64,000 nucleotides of DNA from the IMG/VR virus record IMGVR_UViG_3300000234_000002, positions 1-64,000 of that record, one strand, 5' to 3'. Below, piece by piece: positions 8,446 through 20,508 of this stretch. Position 1 is the stretch's first letter, and each line of letters starts with the position of its first letter. Made by a program: the position numbers and the translations under genes. The notes under the pieces were generated by a model, which was given only the letters and a program-made list of their open reading frames with translations, searched no databases and had not been told where the DNA came from. The stretch comes from a virus.

Positions 8446-10092
8446 TCACCTAATTGAAGGGAGTAAAGATTGATTTGCTTCGATTTCGTACATAACATTG
8501 AATTTAAAACTATACTCCATACTATGAGGTCTATCCGCACTGTCAGTTATTGAAAAATCTAAGAATGAACCTATGTAAATCTTTCCATCATAATAAATGA
8601 ATATGCTCATTGGTATAAGTCGTATACCAGAATTTGTAGAACCGGCTTTTGGTCCTGCAAATATATAACCATTATTTTTATAAATTTTAACCAAACTCAT
8701 CAAATTCTGATACGCTAAACTTCGAACCCTCCGGAGATTCGAAAGGCCACCATTCCCAGCGGCGTCCATGGCATAAAAAGCAGCGGTCGATCCTGAACAC
8801 TGAATGGTCATTGGCTGTTCGAGCCAACTATGAATAACAGTAGTTCTTCTCGTCTTAGCCTTATCTATTGTGTGAGTGAAAGATTTATCAAAGTCTTTGG
8901 GATTGACAAGCAACGCCAGAGGCGGAGTTGACTGGAAAATTTTAATTTGTTCTTTAACTTCATTCAGATAATCTTGATTTGACCTATACTTTCTACCATC
9001 AAGAACTTTGCGGATATTACGACCCGGAGTTGCAGCTAAGGGATCATCAGACTCTAAATCTGTGACTCCACCTGAAGTCATGATACTGAAAGGTGGTGGT
9101 AAGGGGCCCTTCGTGCCTTTTTCTGGCGGTTTAGAATTAGCAGCCGGATTAGATGGGGATGCCTTAAGACCAAGTTTTTGTTGGGCAAGAACAGCGCCAG
9201 CAGTAACATTTCTTATGTATCTTGAGACCGGAGCTTCATAATAACCATATTTTGATTCTTTTCCGTCAGAACCTAATCTACCAGGGTACTCCGGAAATTT
9301 ATCTGGTCTTAAAGCTTTTGCGTACTCTTCAGGTGTTTGGGCATTTAAAATTCCTGGCCATCCAGAAACAGTATTTTGGAGCCAAGAACCAACTGCATCT
9401 TCTAAGGATCCATAAGATCTGAAATAAACTGGATACCAGTTACTGTTAGAATCACTATCAACAGTCAAATAGTAACTCCCACCACTCGGAAGAGGCGGCG
9501 GTTTTGACCAATTTGCAGGAACATTTTGTGGTGAAGGGCCAGGGGCTTTTGTTGGATTAGAGAAAGACCCACCACCACTGGCGTGGACAGCACCTATATT
9601 GAAGTTCTGACAACCAAATCTTCCTGATGGTTTATCACCGCCACCAGATTCAGCATTAATGTTACCTATCATAAGAGGAACTAAACGATTAATATCATTA
9701 TTACTAAAACCATTTTGTTTAAGAATTTTAATAAATAAAGCGGATAAATCTTCAATTCCGAAATTTGTTTGTACCTTTGGTTGTAAACCATCTTTTCTTT
9801 CACCACTAGTAAAAGCTATCGAAACACGTCCAATATCAGAAGGTTGTGAATTTTCAGAACCAGAAGAAGGAATTCCAAATTTATCATAAATATTTTCAGT
9901 TAAGATAAAATCAACTAATTGGTCAGGAGGAATAAATCCAATTATAAATGGCTTTAACTGCTTGGCTCCAGTAAGAGTTCTGTAGTTTCCGTCTTCTCTC
10001 TGGTCGTATGAAATGTTACCAGGACCATATGAATCTTTCAAAAATCTTGTTAGATTTGAAGTATACTGAGATAAATTATTGTAGAATTCCAT
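8446..10092 (-). CDS. Tail lysozyme: glucosaminidase-like domain plus baseplate-binding C-terminal domain
   Basis: This is a 548-residue protein. Residues about 110-310 resemble glucosaminidase/muramidase-type cell-wall hydrolases: MIGNINAESGGG (candidate catalytic Glu148), FNIGAVHASGG, corresponding to the N-L-F-G-I-K turn of GH73 enzymes, and YFRSYGSLEDAVGSW, corresponding to their F-R-x-Y-x-S-x-E motif. A Pro-rich linker follows. Residues about 420-545 form a second domain shared with the neighbouring 10095-10943 protein (a CSGSTAAF-type strand, NGYIFAGP, an IYIGSFLDFSITDSADRPH-type hairpin). It probably degrades peptidoglycan locally during DNA injection. It follows the tape measure and the small baseplate gene and lies 3 bases above the hub gene. 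Confidence 0.75.
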   Translation of the reverse strand: MEFYNNLSQYTSNLTRFLKDSYGPGNISYDQREDGNYRTLTGAKQLKPFIIGFIPPDQLVDFILTENIYDKFGIPSSGSENSQPSDIGRVSIAFTSGERKDGLQPKVQTNFGIEDLSALFIKILKQNGFSNNDINRLVPLMIGNINAESGGGDKPSGRFGCQNFNIGAVHASGGGSFSNPTKAPGPSPQNVPANWSKPPPLPSGGSYYLTVDSDSNSNWYPVYFRSYGSLEDAVGSWLQNTVSGWPGILNAQTPEEYAKALRPDKFPEYPGRLGSDGKESKYGYYEAPVSRYIRNVTAGAVLAQQKLGLKASPSNPAANSKPPEKGTKGPLPPPFSIMTSGGVTDLESDDPLAATPGRNIRKVLDGRKYRSNQDYLNEVKEQIKIFQSTPPLALLVNPKDFDKSFTHTIDKAKTRRTTVIHSWLEQPMTIQCSGSTAAFYAMDAAGNGGLSNLRRVRSLAYQNLMSLVKIYKNNGYIFAGPKAGSTNSGIRLIPMSIFIYYDGKIYIGSFLDFSITDSADRPHSMEYSFKFNVMYEIEANQSLLPSIR

Positions 10093-10945: not shown

Positions 10946-13900
10946 TTACTGTTGTTTATAGAGACTATGAACAGCGTCACGTATTTCAGCCGCTGAAGCT
11001 TGAGAATTCACATTTATGGTTGCGTTCACATTAACAACTTTGGAACCAGAACCACCAGAACCACCAGAACCACTTACTAACACACCACCCTTCGGAACAA
11101 CATACTCGCCCGCATGCACTTTAGCGACTTGATCGTAATTTACAGAACCACCGGTATCAAATGATGGTCCTTTCCAGTCACCCTTAATTCCAAATCTTTC
11201 TTTCTGTTCTTTACCGTTAAGCCAACTTTGGGTCATAGTCATAGCGTCAACAGCGCTTGTTATACCGCCTTCTTCAAATTGTGGTTTCCATTTATCAACT
11301 GTTGCAGCATCAGTTAATAGAGCAAATTCAAATAAAGCAGTTCTGAAAGATTCTAAAGTAGATTCTTTTATTACATTCTTATACTTTCCTTCAGTAAACT
11401 GAGGGTCGAGCTTAATGCCCTTATAAAGATGCTTTTCTATTTTTGAAAGTAAACTATTTGAATCATCAGCATTTTCAGCTGTAGAAACAGCAGCTTCAGT
11501 AGAGTCAAGAATTTCTTCGTGAGTTTTTTCAGCAACTTTGGCTGCATCTTCCTGAGTTTTTACGACTTCTTTAGTTGGACCTGAAGCAGAAGTTGCAGGA
11601 TTTGTGGTGGTAACAGCTCCTGGAACAGCAGAAGGAGCCCCACTAATTGGTAAACTTTGGTCTGTTAAATCACTAACATTTTTAACTTTAGATAAGTCAA
11701 CGATTTTTTTTGCATTAGCAGCGTTAGTTTCAGCAATTTTTTCCTGTGCAGTTTTTGAACGAGTCGTATCAGCTGGATCTCTTTTAGTTTTAAGACCAGC
11801 TGCTTTATCCTTAGCTTCTTGTGAAGTAAGACCTCTTTCGGCCATCCTACCAGAAAGATGAAGAACGTTTTCACCAACCCCGCCATTACCTTCCCAGTCT
11901 TTTAACTCATCGAGAAGTTTCAAAACTGGTGCTATGTCACCAGTTTCTGAAGCGGTAATTTGCGCTTTACTTATTTTTTCAGAATATTCTCTAGATTGAG
12001 TCCCGGTATATTTATACCCTCTAGCCATATTTTCCATGACCTTTTTAAAACCTTTAGGATCCATAGATGTTATAGTTTCTTTTAAAGAAGAAGAACTTGA
12101 AAGATCCTGAACTAGTTTATCGCCTGTATGGCCCTTCGCGGAGCCTTTTTTAACTTCAGCATTTACTATATCCAAAAATTGGTCACCACCAGCTTTTTTC
12201 CATGTTTGATCATTACGATTTACAGCATAAGCCTTTAGATTATCTGTTATCTCGTCTGCTTTTTTGACTTGCTTCTGCCCGCCGTCTTTCCATAATCCAA
12301 AAACACCAGCTACCAATTGATCCAAATAATCTGCAAGAGGATCTAAAACACGAAGAATTTGTTCTAAAAGGAAAGATATAACGTTATCTATTTTATCGCC
12401 GATAGAAGATGTTACGTTATATTGTTCTTGGCCTAAGTCAAAAATTTTCTTGTTATCTTTTGAAAGTTCTTGCGCCCTAACAGTAGCTTCCAAAATTTCA
12501 TCTTTGGAAACTGTTTTCATATCGTCTAAAGTAAGTTGGTCAACAGATTTTTTAGTTCTTCTAGATACTATTTCAGCAAGAGCAGTATTTAGGGTTCTAT
12601 CTTCAGTTCCACCAGTTTCCTTAATGAGAGATGTGTTACCTGCTAAATTTTCGTCCATACTTCTTAGAGCTTCATATTGTTCATTACTCATTCCTTTGCT
12701 AATAACATATTCTTGTAGTCCATCAAAACCTGTTCCAAATCTTTGTGATAATTCTTTCATTATCTTATAATTCGCCATCATACCAGCACCAGACATGGCG
12801 GTAGTGATGTTAAGAGCATCACCTTTTTGTCTCGCGCCTTCGTAGCGAGCTAATTTCTGAGCACTTCCTATCTGTGCACCATCTATAGTTTCACCTTGAG
12901 CGGAAGCATTTTTTCTTGCTTTTGCTAACATGTTAGCAGTGGCTTTTTCTCCACCTTTTATTGCTTTGGTAAAATCTTCTTCGTTAACCCCATATTTAGA
13001 AAAATTTTTAGCCATAGAGCGAGCTTTAGAGTCAAAGTCCTTTGCTAGGATACCAGAGACTTTTCCAACACCAACTTTTAAAGCGGTTCCGAGTCTTTGT
13101 TTGAAGTCCATACCCTTAAAACTTGCTGAAAAAGAATCTGTGAAATTCTTAACGTCTTTAGAACTCATGGTCTTTGAAAGTAAACGAATAGTTCCCGTAA
13201 GTTCTTCAAGTCTGTTTTGGTAAGTTTCCATATCCGGGATGACACTGTGGAAAATCCCCATGAATTTGGAAACTGGCATATTGGCAGCAGCAGCACCTCT
13301 TACTATTTCACCAAGAGCATCAATTGACGCTTCTCTCGTATAACCAAGTTCTTGGTTTAAATGGCCCATCATAACAGTTGCGTCTTCAGCAGACATACCT
13401 AATGCCTGACCGAAAACCATGGCGGATTTTGCTAATTTCTCGATACCTTCGTCTAAATTACCATCACCAATTTTATGAAGGTCGTTTTGTAACTGTTGTA
13501 TGGAACCTCCGGTTTCTCTTGCGAAGGTTCCGATAATTTTAGAAGTGAGTTCAGAGTTACCACCAAAAGCCCTCATGGACCAATCAGCAGCGCGAACTCC
13601 TTCTCTAAGATTTGCTAAACTCTTTCTATATGCTTCTGATCCAGCTCCTGCGTCTTTAGCTATTGAAGTTCCTGCAGTAAGCTCACGATTCAATTTAGCT
13701 GAAGCCTGAGAAGTCATTTCAATTACTTTTATAAAAACAGAAATAGCTGCAACAGCAATACCCATGACTCCGGCAAATTTAGCAAGATTCCCAGAAAGGC
13801 CACCAACCATGGCAGCCATATCACCACCAGCAGCCGCACTCGCAGCTCCAGCTCCACCACCACCACCTCCGCCAGCACCACCCGCAGCCCTAGCGGCACC

Positions 13901-14512
13901 CCCAATTCCCTTAGCTATCCCTCCGGCTGAAATTGGTGACTTGCTTCTAAAACCCTTTATAATGTTTGACATCCCACCCGCACCTCGGGTGAGATTCGAT
14001 ATGACGCTCTTTAATCCTCTTCCACCACCACCTTGGAGACCATCTCTTAGAAGATTAGGAAGTGAACTCCCTAACTCTTTAACACCAGATTTCAACGTCC
14101 TTCTTAAGTCAGAAACATAACGTTCCTGAGCTTGTATCATATTTTTAGTTGAACGAATTTGCTTTTGTAGAAGAGCGTTATGCTGTCCTATATTTCTATT
14201 TTGCTTAGTTGATAACTTATCTTTGTTTTTATCGGACCCTATACCAGCGGGACCGCCACCTTTGGCTCTAGCTTTACCACCACCTCCACCACCTGAAGCT
14301 AAACCTTTAGCAGACTTTCCGACTTCATCTGATACTCTTCGAATGTTCCTAATAACTGGACCTGAATTTTTAGATATGCCTTTTAAGGCTTCAGTTATAT
14401 TAAGTAAATTTTTCTCTAGATTTTTAAGATCACGAATAGTATTAGCAGTCGCCCTTTTATCTAATTCGGGTACTACTGGTATTTTTATATTGATTTTTTC
14501 TTTGCTTGCCAT
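10946..14512 (-). CDS. Tail tape measure protein
   Basis: A 1188-residue protein follows the chaperone-position genes and precedes the baseplate genes, the canonical tape-measure place. It has a Lys-rich N-terminal helical region, a long Gly/Ala-rich stretch around residues 190-235, and one clear hydrophobic segment at about 236-265 (LAKFAGVMGIAVAAISVFIKVI) that could cross the host membrane. Long helical regions follow. The C-terminus carries a typical tape-measure signature, SFDTGGSV... VHAGEYVVPKGGVLV, then a Gly/Ser linker and a VNVNATINVNS tail. It sets tail length and is ejected with the DNA. Confidence is high from architecture and position. Confidence 0.88.
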   Translation of the reverse strand: MASKEKINIKIPVVPELDKRATANTIRDLKNLEKNLLNITEALKGISKNSGPVIRNIRRVSDEVGKSAKGLASGGGGGGKARAKGGGPAGIGSDKNKDKLSTKQNRNIGQHNALLQKQIRSTKNMIQAQERYVSDLRRTLKSGVKELGSSLPNLLRDGLQGGGGRGLKSVISNLTRGAGGMSNIIKGFRSKSPISAGGIAKGIGGAARAAGGAGGGGGGGAGAASAAAGGDMAAMVGGLSGNLAKFAGVMGIAVAAISVFIKVIEMTSQASAKLNRELTAGTSIAKDAGAGSEAYRKSLANLREGVRAADWSMRAFGGNSELTSKIIGTFARETGGSIQQLQNDLHKIGDGNLDEGIEKLAKSAMVFGQALGMSAEDATVMMGHLNQELGYTREASIDALGEIVRGAAAANMPVSKFMGIFHSVIPDMETYQNRLEELTGTIRLLSKTMSSKDVKNFTDSFSASFKGMDFKQRLGTALKVGVGKVSGILAKDFDSKARSMAKNFSKYGVNEEDFTKAIKGGEKATANMLAKARKNASAQGETIDGAQIGSAQKLARYEGARQKGDALNITTAMSGAGMMANYKIMKELSQRFGTGFDGLQEYVISKGMSNEQYEALRSMDENLAGNTSLIKETGGTEDRTLNTALAEIVSRRTKKSVDQLTLDDMKTVSKDEILEATVRAQELSKDNKKIFDLGQEQYNVTSSIGDKIDNVISFLLEQILRVLDPLADYLDQLVAGVFGLWKDGGQKQVKKADEITDNLKAYAVNRNDQTWKKAGGDQFLDIVNAEVKKGSAKGHTGDKLVQDLSSSSSLKETITSMDPKGFKKVMENMARGYKYTGTQSREYSEKISKAQITASETGDIAPVLKLLDELKDWEGNGGVGENVLHLSGRMAERGLTSQEAKDKAAGLKTKRDPADTTRSKTAQEKIAETNAANAKKIVDLSKVKNVSDLTDQSLPISGAPSAVPGAVTTTNPATSASGPTKEVVKTQEDAAKVAEKTHEEILDSTEAAVSTAENADDSNSLLSKIEKHLYKGIKLDPQFTEGKYKNVIKESTLESFRTALFEFALLTDAATVDKWKPQFEEGGITSAVDAMTMTQSWLNGKEQKERFGIKGDWKGPSFDTGGSVNYDQVAKVHAGEYVVPKGGVLVSGSGGSGGSGSKVVNVNATINVNSQASAAEIRDAVHSLYKQQ

Positions 14513-14521
14513 TTATAATTT

Positions 14522-15652
14522 TCAAGTCTTATCGAAGGTTTCGGGGTTGCTCAAATCAGCAAGTGATTTGTTGAAATTCTCTCTCTTTATTTCTTTCAGT
14601 CTATTAATTCTCTCCATGTATTCCTTAGCAGCTTGAGAATTACCAATAGATCTTGAACCGTCTTGGCTTTCAAGGTTGAGAGAGAATAATTTATGCTTTT
14701 GGGAATCTATTTCCTTGGACCTTCCTTCCATTTCCTTCATCTTCTGGTCCATCACCATGTCGTGATAGTCCTTCTCACCGGAAAGAGCGGAGGAAAGCTG
14801 CTCGGCTAGTTCTTCAGCAGTTTCAGCCTTGAACTTATTGACGACTGTGGCTAAACGACCATCCGGGAGATAAATTTTGCTCTCATATTCTTCGCCCTCT
14901 TTATCGATTTTATTCAAATAACGATAAAGAACTTTCATTTTAAGTTCTTCTCGTTCTTGTTTCTCTTTATTTATACGACCTTTATCTTTTTCATCAATGG
15001 ACTTGATGGCTTTACCACCAGCCATGCAAGATCCTACGAATTTAGCGTTAGCCCAATCTCTTTCAACTTCTTCTTTGGTATCTACTATATGGTTGAGTGA
15101 TACCCACATTTGTTGGGTTGAAGTAAGACCTAAATGATCGGTTCCTGGAACACCTGTATTTAAATGTGAGTTTATTGGTGAACCTATTATATGGAGCCAT
15201 TTAAACCTTGAACGATTTTCATAGGTATAAACCTCGGTTAAAGGAAAAAGTCTGTTAGAACGTTCGTTAAGATAAGAAAGATTGTCTATTATTCTGTTTT
15301 GTTCAACTGGGGAAAGAGTTCCGATTATTCGGATTATTTTATCTATATGATTTGGTCTTTCATAAAGAACATTCACACCATTTATCATGAAAACGCTGTG
15401 AGCTATTAAACGAATTCGAAATGAAGTATCTGATTCGAATTTTGAAGAACGAACTGGTTTTGCATAACTTATTAATTTAATTTCATTTTGATTTATGGTT
15501 TTGAAAACAAAATGATGTTTTTTGACAATTGAAGTTGCTGTTAAAAAACCAGTGAATAAAAAATCTTCGAACTCTTTCCATACATCATCCGATACCTTTT
15601 TGTAGGTTTCGGGAACTGATATTACTATTTTCTTAGTTGTATTATCTGACAA
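14522..15652 (-). CDS. Putative tail assembly protein (chaperone position), TTG start, same frame as upstream gene
   Basis: This 376-residue protein (SDNTTKKIVISVPETYKKV...) precedes the tape measure by 9 bases. It has no ATG start: the first plausible codon is TTG at 15652. It lies in the same reading frame as the 15659-16510 gene, separated only by TGA, TCT and AAA. Either translation restarts at TTG after termination, or a minor fraction of ribosomes reads through the TGA to give a fusion. The C-terminal half is a long charged helix/coiled coil (KEKQEREELKMKVL, EMEGRSKEIDSQKHKL). Position suggests a tail assembly chaperone or tape-measure partner. The family is not recognised. Confidence 0.65.
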   Translation of the reverse strand: MSDNTTKKIVISVPETYKKVSDDVWKEFEDFLFTGFLTATSIVKKHHFVFKTINQNEIKLISYAKPVRSSKFESDTSFRIRLIAHSVFMINGVNVLYERPNHIDKIIRIIGTLSPVEQNRIIDNLSYLNERSNRLFPLTEVYTYENRSRFKWLHIIGSPINSHLNTGVPGTDHLGLTSTQQMWVSLNHIVDTKEEVERDWANAKFVGSCMAGGKAIKSIDEKDKGRINKEKQEREELKMKVLYRYLNKIDKEGEEYESKIYLPDGRLATVVNKFKAETAEELAEQLSSALSGEKDYHDMVMDQKMKEMEGRSKEIDSQKHKLFSLNLESQDGSRSIGNSQAAKEYMERINRLKEIKRENFNKSLADLSNPETFDKT

Positions 15653-15658
15653 TTTAGA

Positions 15659-16510
15659 TCACGCTTTTTTGAACCTCGGATTAACAGAATGAGTTATGTT
15701 AGGGTCTAAAACTGGAGTGTTATTTACTTTGACCTTTGGCTCCAAAACGTCATTTCTGACCGGAACGTTTTTGGCTTCTGGGATGGGAGACTCTTCAATG
15801 AATGGAGCTTCGTCAGATTCCAAATCTTTTACGCTAAAAGGTGACTCTTGCACAACGACTTCTTCCTCCTCTTCATACTCTGAAGGTGGGTCTATCCTCT
15901 TGAAAGGATCAAAATCTTCTTTTTCTTCCTCAGTTGATTCTCCTTCTTCGGAAGATTCAGACTCCTCTTCAGACCCGGAACTTTCAACAAGTTTCGGCTT
16001 TCCGAGATTCTTTCTGAGTTCTTGGACTCTAGATTCAAGATCAGAGAGTTCAACTTCAGGGTCTTTGACGTTATCGAATTCTATGTCTTTTAAATTTGAC
16101 TTCTGGTGTGATTCCATGAGATCTGAGTAAACGGTGAATATGTCATCTATGAGCTGGGCTCCCCAATTTTTCATATACCCTTCAAGCATAATATTAAGAG
16201 GAACGCTTACCGTTTTTCCTTCTTTAGACTTTTGGGGGAAAGACGGTTTGAAATCACGAAATTTTAGAAAGTCTATATTATCAATTCCAGATATTGCGTA
16301 GCTTAGGGTTATGCGCTTAATTTCTATCATAATATTGGCGCCGAGTTCACGAGAGTTCATCATCTCGTTTATCTTAAACTGCGAAAAATAAGGAATTGGA
16401 GAAAGCTTGAAAACTTTCCCGGCAATTTTTCTGTTCCAAACAACATCGGAATTTCCGATGTTTGAAAGTTTGTCTTCTATTTCTTGAAAAAATGCACTAT
16501 CTATAGCCAT
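15659..16510 (-). CDS. Putative tail assembly chaperone with acidic tail
   Basis: This 283-residue protein starts MAIDSAFFQEIEDKL. The N-terminal ~150 residues look globular and helical. Residues about 180-235 are very acidic and Ser/Glu-rich (SGSEEESESSEEGESTEEE), followed by a Pro/Val-rich tail. It is encoded between the tail tube and the tape measure, where contractile phages keep their tail assembly chaperones, usually with a longer fused form. Here the next gene is in the same frame after a single TGA. The motif GTATAGT lies exactly five bases above its ATG. It is called chaperone on position only. Confidence 0.6.
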   Translation of the reverse strand: MAIDSAFFQEIEDKLSNIGNSDVVWNRKIAGKVFKLSPIPYFSQFKINEMMNSRELGANIMIEIKRITLSYAISGIDNIDFLKFRDFKPSFPQKSKEGKTVSVPLNIMLEGYMKNWGAQLIDDIFTVYSDLMESHQKSNLKDIEFDNVKDPEVELSDLESRVQELRKNLGKPKLVESSGSEEESESSEEGESTEEEKEDFDPFKRIDPPSEYEEEEEVVVQESPFSVKDLESDEAPFIEESPIPEAKNVPVRNDVLEPKVKVNNTPVLDPNITHSVNPRFKKA

Positions 16511-17237: not shown

Positions 17238-17930
17238 TTAACGAATACCACCACCGGGAACAGTGAAGAGACGAGATCCAGAACCGGGTTGGATGATCGG
17301 GTTGTTACCAGCGTCAAGGAGATCGCCGTAAGTATCAACCGAGTTACCAAAGTTCGTGAATCCGTCCGTCACGTCAGTTGCCATTGCCTGGCAATCTTCC
17401 AAAACGATGGCAGAATCGCCAGGGAAAGAAACCGAATAGCTGTTTATCCAGCAGGCTTCGAAGTATGTGACCATGGCGTAATTGGCACCATCAGTCTCAG
17501 TTGTCTTCTTGAAGATCGCCGCCTGATCGATGGCGGTCACAAGCTCCGAGAACACAAGCTCCGAGCGGATGTCAAACGGCCATTTGTGATGGCGAAGAGA
17601 GCGGACAAGACCATCAATACCACCTCTGTAACCGAGTTCCTGGACTATGCCAGCAGTGTACATGAGAGTGCGGTTGAGGGTCAAAGAAGCCGGTTCGGTA
17701 ACACCAGGAACGAGTTCCACAACTCGGTCACCGAAACCAACACCACGAACCGGATCGACTGAACGACTTTCCGAAAAGTCGAAAGTCGAAAGAACACCAA
17801 CTTGTTTCTGAGAAGGGGCTCCAGTGGTATAAGGCTTAGAAAAAACGCGATTCTTTTGGCTTATGGCCACCCTGGTGTTTGGTGAAGATCCTTTTCTATA
17901 AATCTGAGGTACGTCGGCTTCTCTTGACAT
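17238..17930 (-). CDS. Tail tube protein
   Basis: This 230-residue protein precedes the chaperone-position genes and tape measure, is followed by a strong terminator, and has a good GAGGAG ribosome site before the ATG. Its codon use is more GC-rich than most neighbours, as in the sheath gene, which signals high expression. The sequence is beta-rich with FDFSESRSVDPVRGVGFGDRVVELVPGVTEPASLTLNR, a pattern of tube/gp19-like proteins (an opening strand, then a long loop and a helix FEACWINSYSVSFPGDSAIVLEDC toward the end). It would form the inner hollow tube of the contractile tail. The call is from position, codon bias and size. Confidence 0.75.
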   Translation of the reverse strand: MSREADVPQIYRKGSSPNTRVAISQKNRVFSKPYTTGAPSQKQVGVLSTFDFSESRSVDPVRGVGFGDRVVELVPGVTEPASLTLNRTLMYTAGIVQELGYRGGIDGLVRSLRHHKWPFDIRSELVFSELVTAIDQAAIFKKTTETDGANYAMVTYFEACWINSYSVSFPGDSAIVLEDCQAMATDVTDGFTNFGNSVDTYGDLLDAGNNPIIQPGSGSRLFTVPGGGIR

Positions 17931-19623: not shown

Positions 19624-20508
19624 ATGACCTCTCTAGTAAAATCCATCTACCCCGAAATTTCTTGTCCTCCGTGGCTTCCTAACGCCGTGTGTTACGAAGT
19701 CATTATGGGAAGTAACGCCTATGGAGTATCCTCCGATGACTCCGACACGGACATTTATGGTTTTTGCATCCCTAAAAAGGAAATGATTTTTCCGCATTTG
19801 GCGGGAGAAATCTTCGGATTCGGATCTCAAGCCAAAAGATTTGACGTTTGGCAAGAACATCATATTAAAAATAAAGATAAAGAATATGACTTTTCTATTT
19901 ATGGAATTGTGAAGTTTTTCCAGCTTTGCATGGAAAACAATCCTAATATGATAGATTCACTTTTTGTTCCTAATAACTGTGTTATTTATTCAAATGCCGT
20001 AGGACAACATGTTCGTGAGAATCGTCATAAGTTTCTCCATAAGGGCTGTTTCCACAAGCTAAAGGGATATGCTTATTCTCAACTCAACAAAATGAAGAAC
20101 GGTAGTCCTCGTGAAAATTCAAAGAGGGCTGAAAGCATAGCCAAATATGGTTTTGACGTGAAATTCGGATATCATGTTGTGAGGCTCGTTTTGGAAGCCG
20201 AACAAATTCTCACAACTGGAGATTTGAATCTTCAACTCCATAAAGAACAGTTGAAAGCGATAAGACGTGGAGAAGTTCCACTCGAAAAAATCGAAGAGTT
20301 TTTTAATGAAAAAGAGAAAGTTCTTGAGGGTCTTTATCATTCATCAACAGTAATTCCTTATTCTCCGGATGAAAACGCAATAAAAGAGCTTCTCATAAAT
20401 TGTTTAGAAATGCACTACGGCTCTCTTGAGAAAGCCGTAGTCATTGAGGATTCTCACATCAAAGCTCTTCGAGATATCAAAAAGATTCTCGAAAAAGCCA
20501 ACATTTAG
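19624..20508 (+). CDS. Predicted nucleotidyltransferase (RlaP/YcgL-like, DNA polymerase beta superfamily)
   Basis: This 294-residue protein carries the nucleotidyltransferase signature near the N-terminus: MGSNAYGVSSDDSDTDIYGF at residues 28-47, giving GS followed by two metal-binding Asp residues (41 and 43). The helical C-terminal half (FHKLKGYAYSQLNKMKNG... AKYGFDVKFGYHVVRL) fits the DUF4435-free RlaP-type proteins common in large phages. It would transfer a nucleotide to an unknown target, possibly RNA or a small molecule. Length and motif spacing are normal for the family. The substrate cannot be told from sequence. Confidence 0.85.
   Translation: MTSLVKSIYPEISCPPWLPNAVCYEVIMGSNAYGVSSDDSDTDIYGFCIPKKEMIFPHLAGEIFGFGSQAKRFDVWQEHHIKNKDKEYDFSIYGIVKFFQLCMENNPNMIDSLFVPNNCVIYSNAVGQHVRENRHKFLHKGCFHKLKGYAYSQLNKMKNGSPRENSKRAESIAKYGFDVKFGYHVVRLVLEAEQILTTGDLNLQLHKEQLKAIRRGEVPLEKIEEFFNEKEKVLEGLYHSSTVIPYSPDENAIKELLINCLEMHYGSLEKAVVIEDSHIKALRDIKKILEKANI

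Follow-up and report, generated by a model that had tools for sequence, protein, structure and literature searches.

A probable two-gene tail assembly chaperone module at an in-frame TGA junction in a virus sequence

When two long reading frames of a phage tail cluster share one frame and are divided by a single TGA, do they yield a fused protein by readthrough of the stop codon, or are they two genes that happen to be in register? This question is raised by a stretch of 64,000 nucleotides (the window), which is part of the 83,957-base virus record IMGVR_UViG_3300000234_000002. On its minus strand, the frame designated here as gene 1 ends in TGA, followed by TCT (15658-15656), AAA (15655-15653) and TTG (15652-15650), and the same frame then continues as gene 2 for 376 codons. 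This layout had been reported in a preliminary description made from the letters alone, which also remarked that the second gene has no ATG. Both observations are confirmed, with the coordinates falling on the minus strand and the TTG being the only ATG, GTG or TTG codon within the first 90 nt of the gene 2 frame. The features of the tail locus that concern us are the following.

17238-17930, minus strand: tail-tube candidate, a homologue of phage G gp180 ('virion structural protein'), with its function assigned from position
15659-16510, minus strand: gene 1, 283 aa, with ATG at 16510 and the stop TGA at 15661-15659
14522-15652, minus strand: gene 2, 376 aa, without an internal stop and ending in TGA at 14524-14522
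10946-14512, minus strand: large downstream protein of 1188 aa, tape-measure candidate, named by size and position

Locus and reading frames in the window

Gene 1 and gene 2 are both long frames and both have homologues. The order tail-tube candidate, gene 1, gene 2 is kept in all 85 sequences of our survey that carry both genes, and a homologue of the tape-measure candidate lies 3′ of gene 2 in 61 of them. BLAST returned no match to this candidate in the remaining 24 sequences (some of them end early), and the candidate itself matched no family at E 0.001. Gene 1 thus lies between a tube and a tape-measure candidate that are both named by position.

The neighbouring tail genes lie close against one another. 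Among 40 minus-strand ORFs that we selected from the window, 8 of the 26 tight consecutive pairs (gap of -10 to 40 nt), or about one third, share a frame. Two same-frame tight pairs lie within the tail cluster, one formed by gene 2 and the tape-measure candidate, where TGA, 9 nt and the ATG at 14512 follow one another, and one at 8446 to 8442. Taken by itself, the shared frame of gene 1 and gene 2 is therefore unremarkable and no more than chance would give. The codon between them is equally commonplace. TGA terminates 20 of the 40 listed ORFs and is therefore an ordinary stop here, and no tRNA gene was found in the window.

The window also contains a repeated leader, some 40 residues long and opening with ATG, that is shared by seven frames with different downstream sequence. 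The leaders start at these positions:

16559, plus strand
19270, minus strand
20965, minus strand
21390, minus strand (inside a longer frame)
39098, minus strand
40682, minus strand
44333, minus strand

Six of the copies are 93-100% identical to the query and one is 51% identical. In these six leaders a stretch of about 120 bases is near-identical at the DNA level, and on either side of it the similarity breaks off sharply. The leader could serve as a tag for sorting or packaging, or be a propeptide that is cleaved off, and may be spreading between genes; a search of viral contigs with one leader-carrying protein found no relative of it. Beside the tail genes lies a further recognizable gene:

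19624-20508, plus strand: nucleotidyltransferase of the RlaP/phrog_388 kind (Pfam PF10127, E 2e-20)

Frame relation and junctions among relatives

Direct searches gave little beyond the window. The gene 1 protein found no distant phage, the gene 2 protein found one distant huge phage (LR745208, 28% identity), and neither protein found a match when searched against viral contigs. In LR745208, gene 1 stops at TAG, and gene 2 starts at GTG in a different frame. The tail-tube candidate served as the anchor for fetching further relatives: its alignment provided the best 80 of 431 viral contigs, and a gene 2 alignment contributed 4 more loci. We thus examined 86 sequences (the window, LR745208 and 84 contigs), and dropped one contig, L049, in which neither gene was found, leaving the 85 with both genes. 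Clustering at 90% identity removed 17 near-copies and left 68 non-redundant sequences, and two of these (L010 and L075, with an inserted ORF) were set apart to give 66 non-redundant adjacent pairs, the window included. The gene 2 tree has 65 of these 66 rows, with L056 omitted (gene 2 cut at 97 aa).

A fused gene 1-gene 2 frame occurs in none of the 85 sequences, a survey that comprises the best 80 of the 431 contigs, the added loci and the window. In the 66 adjacent pairs the gap modulo 3 is 0 in 34, 1 in 11 and 2 in 21, with the gap itself falling between -8 and 11 nt in 63. Gene 2 starts with ATG in 56 pairs, GTG in 6 and TTG in 4, as counted under a start rule that prefers ATG and so favours the ATG tally. 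The 34 in-frame pairs stop at TGA in 17 cases, TAA in 12 and TAG in 5, and a second in-frame stop is present in 5.

Whether relatives keep the in-frame stop had been proposed as a check in the preliminary description, and the answer is that 34 of the 66 pairs are in frame and 32 are not. Mapped on the 65-row gene 2 tree, the label of same or different frame changes 22 times, against a mean of 22.1 for shuffled labels, and well-supported branches alone force at least 13 changes. Because the label changes as often as shuffled labels do, the frame relation between gene 1 and gene 2 is, across these sequences, not conserved. The lability extends to the closest relatives of the window, with gene 2 proteins 43-50% identical: in L005, L008, L011, L013 and L014 the genes are out of frame and gene 2 has an ATG, and in L006 they are in frame, again with ATG. 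Furthermore, an extra ORF of 220 or 228 aa separates gene 1 from gene 2 in the two sequences set apart:

3057-3719 in L010: inserted ORF between gene 1 and gene 2
11920-12606 in L075: inserted ORF between gene 1 and gene 2

Both inserted ORFs show putative HNH-like Cys/His patterns, read by eye from the letters.

In-frame pairs are nevertheless over-represented at this junction. Under the counting rule of the control, in which tight pairs at other junctions were taken with ATG starts only, 27 of 55 pairs are in frame here versus 75 of 252 other tight pairs from the same loci. The excess stems largely from gaps of exactly 3 nt between stop and ATG, which occur in 20 of 55 pairs at the gene 1/gene 2 junction versus 38 of 252 other tight pairs; at the next junction the count is 9 of 43. 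The excess of 3-nt gaps, which a reading as two separate genes leaves unexplained, is a point against that reading. As far as these junctions indicate, the in-frame excess does not look like readthrough, because the in-frame set includes TAA and double stops and the state flips freely.

Relationship of both proteins to tail assembly chaperones

Homology searches were undertaken with the families of both proteins. The profiles used with hmmsearch and hhalign were built from 68 of 75 distinct gene 1 rows (7 excluded for a wrong start or wrong ORF) and from 70 of 71 gene 2 rows (1 excluded), and the family alignments A4 and A5 hold 58 of 75 gene 1 rows and 63 of 71 gene 2 rows. The gene 1 product has a folded part of about residues 1-170, followed by an acidic tail, variable and of low confidence, whose last residues are NPRFKKA:

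15662-15682, minus strand: C-terminal motif region of gene 1

In 61 of 68 clusters gene 1 carries an N[PTA][RKH][FY] motif within its final 30 residues, after the variable acidic stretch.

With hmmsearch, the gene 1 profile matched gp181 at 2e-10 among the local ORFs of Bacillus phage G, and gp181 was the sole place found in the whole phage G genome (2.8e-9). Similarly, the sole place in the whole genome of Tunturiibacter phage Tunturi_5 was gp258 (1.4e-8), which is annotated as a tail assembly chaperone and directly precedes the annotated tape measure gp257. Neither gene had a match within the 30.6 kb around the tail-tube homologue of Tunturi_5. When restricted to the N-domain (the first 116 residues of gene 1), the profile found phage G at 2.5e-11 and Tunturi_5 at 2.1e-10, and the remaining linker part found neither at E 1; it is therefore the folded domain, rather than the acidic linker, that carries the match. 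Alignment of the gene 1 family with hhalign gave 2.5e-8 for gp181 and 0.05 for the T part of gp182, and none of 35 controls (15 other phage G proteins and 20 shuffles) did better than 0.0089. PHROG matches to tail assembly chaperones occurred in a minority of the 58 gene 1 relatives (phrog_2792 in 5, phrog_2992 in 4), and the window proteins of gene 1 and gene 2 themselves matched no chaperone family. Pfam yielded scattered weak matches to the gene 1 family, with no tail protein among them. The predicted structure of gene 1 (mean pLDDT 78.6) had the HK97 tail assembly chaperone 2ob9 as its top PDB match, a weak one (Foldseek E 0.87), and superposition gave a Z of 6.7, in or near the range that the tool calls common, over 99 aligned residues with an rmsd of 4.7. 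Overall, homology to annotated chaperones suggests that gene 1 is probably a short, lambda gpG-like tail assembly chaperone.

The gene 2 product appears to combine a G-like domain (about residues 20-130) with a helical region that carries the conserved pattern Q..W...N...D........W. Its link to phage G gp182 rests on hhalign, because the gene 2 HMM found nothing in phage G with hmmsearch, gp182 included; it also found nothing anywhere in the Tunturi_5 genome. By hhalign, the gene 2 family aligned co-linearly with the joined gp182 at 1.4e-6 (probability 90%, 151 columns). The match to the T part of gp182 alone was modest, at 3.8e-5 (probability 71%, 49 columns), and gp181 alone gave only 0.0069 (probability 5.6%); the best of the 35 controls reached 0.028. 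A single one of 63 gene 2 relatives matched a PHROG family, of unknown function.

Comparison of the two families with each other gave an hhalign value of 7.3e-5 (probability 62%, 57 columns), and the two predicted structures open with the same elements, namely a helix, two strands, two helices and a strand. The gene 2 model (mean pLDDT 84.9) also had 2ob9 as its top PDB match, again weak (Foldseek E 0.13), with a Z of 8.7, in or near the range that the tool calls common, over 102 aligned residues and an rmsd of 4.9. We consider gene 1 and gene 2 to be probably distantly homologous and gene 2 to be a candidate long, gpGT-like tail assembly chaperone. The earlier assignment of both frames to tail assembly is thus upheld, and as far as homology tells the two are of the chaperone type.

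Initiation of gene 2 and competing explanations

The explanation that we favour, with considerable confidence, is that of two separate and adjacent chaperone genes, probably distantly homologous, the second of which is initiated at the TTG. A point against its use is the weakness of TTG as a start codon. The TTG is nonetheless most likely the start of gene 2, because the relatives present separate genes, the frame is labile and an ORF has been inserted between the genes in two loci. The distance from the stop of gene 1 to the start of gene 2 is 3-8 nt in 46 of 66 pairs, and 6 nt for the TTG of the window. Of the two routes to the second protein offered in the preliminary description, a restart at the TTG is accordingly the better reading, with the gene 2 of relatives starting at the equivalent place. 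A candidate ribosome site precedes this codon:

15657-15662, minus strand: GUGAUC, (extended) Shine-Dalgarno-like match, overlapping the TGA and 4 nt before the TTG

The duplex of GUGAUC with the 16S 3′ end has an energy of -9.1 kcal/mol, the third strongest of 40 listed starts and a value reached by 2.5% of 2000 random stretches. The anti-Shine-Dalgarno letters used are those that we presume to apply, they may differ from the 16S of the host, and the pairing involves the outer part of the anti-Shine-Dalgarno sequence. A role for GUGAUC as the gene 2 ribosome site is therefore suggestive only.

The simplest mechanism for gene 2 would be termination-reinitiation aided by GUGAUC. Translation of gene 1 would terminate at the TGA, and gene 2 would be initiated at the TTG 6 nt on, by re-initiation, through the Shine-Dalgarno-like match that overlaps the stop, or by both. 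The gene 1 product would act as the short chaperone that coats the tape measure, and gene 2 would provide a complete long form, binding the tape measure through its own N-domain and recruiting tail-tube subunits through its T-like part. The ratio of short to long forms would then be set by the translation initiation rates of the two starts.

Low-level readthrough of the TGA, giving a 662-residue fusion beside the short form and taking the place of frameshifting, has some points in its favour: everything lies in one frame, only TCT AAA separates the stop from the TTG, and relatives have more in-frame pairs at this junction than at others. The RNA after the stop is also somewhat stabler in the window than its shuffles (z of -2.35, 6 of 200 as stable). 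However, 3 of the 8 relatives that we folded have a z of -2 or lower and all three are out of frame, and no common shape was apparent by eye in the post-stop RNA of the window and these 8 relatives. The junctions point the same way: the genes are out of frame in 32 of 66 pairs and fused in 0 of 85 sequences, the in-frame pairs include 12 of 34 with a TAA stop and 5 of 34 with a second in-frame stop, the frame label is as labile as shuffled labels, and an ORF separates the genes in two loci. TGA is an ordinary stop in the window (20 of 40 ORFs), which lacks a tRNA gene, and gene 2 seems to own a G-like domain, so that a fusion would carry two. The preliminary description had put forward a long form made by readthrough and had set against it relatives with the genes in different frames, an ATG on the second gene and no fused peptide. 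As far as sequence can tell, this is what the relatives present (other frames in 32 of 66, ATG in 56 of 66, no fused frame in 85), and we regard readthrough as very unlikely. Nor does a single gene, broken to TGA in this contig by point mutation or assembly error, account for the junction. The two codons between stop and TTG would suit it, but the unbroken frame occurs in 0 of 85 sequences, and gene 1 keeps the NPRF-type C-terminal end of its family (61 of 68 clusters) beside the stop. The relatives contradict such a break, to which we give next to no credence.

Frameshifting in the style of lambda or phage G might be suspected from the A6G run that ends gene 1 (TTC AAA AAA GCG TGA), a slippery-looking run of A a little 5′ of the stop. 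Gene 2, however, lies in frame 0 and is unreachable by one shift: 15 codons are open in the +1 frame before a TAG, and 5 in the -1 frame before a TAA. The sequence excludes a -1 or +1 shift at this run as a route into gene 2, and linkage of the genes by it has a negligible probability. A different kind of alternative accepts two genes but not a pair of short and long chaperones, with gene 2 sharing the N-domain or less and doing another job in tail assembly. The match to the T part is modest (hhalign 3.8e-5, probability 71%) and invisible to hmmsearch, and in Tunturi_5 the gene 1 homologue stands directly before the tape measure, with no match to gene 2. Against this, the gene after gene 1 is gene 2 in 85 of 85 sequences, and in the 61 that show the tape-measure candidate gene 2 comes before it; the match of gene 2 to gp182 is co-linear, and an HK97 chaperone is its top fold match. 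Another role for gene 2 is, in our judgement, unlikely.

The preferred reading of two separate genes removes a possible case of stop-codon recoding, and it leaves 68 non-redundant tail modules that apparently have two-gene short and long chaperones, beside a homologous module in phage G that uses frameshifting. On the usual view, frameshifting fixes the proportion of short to long chaperone forms, and this family offers material for testing whether a pair of start sites could do so in its place. A conceivable history, about which we are slightly more doubtful than convinced, is that a phage G-type module makes its short and long forms in one branch by programmed frameshift and in another by two genes that arose by duplication and diverged, with the NPR(F/Y)-type peptide of gene 1 as a possible new binding tag that replaces the linkage in cis. 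If true, a module with two such branches would let one ask what frameshifting is for.

Comparison with known tail modules

Phage G has the module in the same place, gp181 and gp182 sitting between gp180, the homologue of the tail-tube candidate, and gp183, which is noted as tapemeasure. The gene 1 family is homologous to gp181, and the gene 2 family aligns along gp182. In contrast to the two complete genes of the window, which involve no shift, the long form gp182 arises by -1 frameshifting (A AAA AAC TAG, an annotated join). The accessible part of PMC8570332 calls gp181 and gp182 tail chaperonins for their frameshift signature and describes them as undetected by mass spectrometry. The term 'tail assembly' is absent from the accessible part of PMC7824862. 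Tunturi_5 resembles the window in that gp258, directly before gp257, is homologous to the gene 1 family. It differs in having one chaperone gene, of 200 residues, with no gene 2 match in the genome, and in that its tail-tube homologue is about 66 kb away. The junction of gp258 and gp257 (L093, 3754-4360) is in the same frame with a 3-nt gap after TAA, another chance-like in-frame junction.

According to the accessible text of the PRFect preprint (PMC10274946), which cites Vladimirov, Gautam and Davidson (2022, Virology 566:9-15), some T4-like phages have one short and one long gene and no frameshifting. The same 2022 work is cited in the accessible text of PMC12846349 for frameshift signals in T4-like chaperone genes, and the T4-like precedent thus rests on second-hand accounts that differ. 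The likeness to the window family is that short and long forms are on separate genes (0 of 85 fused here). The window belongs to another phage lineage and has its genes adjacent before a tape-measure candidate, and the two systems are likened by description, not by sequence. On the PMC10274946 account, as far as its accessible text goes, the two-gene arrangement would be of a known kind, found here in another lineage.

In lambda, the part of PMC5009743 available describes gpG and gpGT as binding the tape measure via G, and T as recruiting the major tail protein. The module of the window resembles that of lambda in position and in the roles proposed for the short and long forms. It differs in that lambda uses -1 frameshifting, which the window junction cannot, its -1 frame stopping at TAA after 5 codons. 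Overall, the junction is ordinary as a case of recoding; its mild interest lies in a chaperone pair that does without frameshifting and is related to one that uses it.
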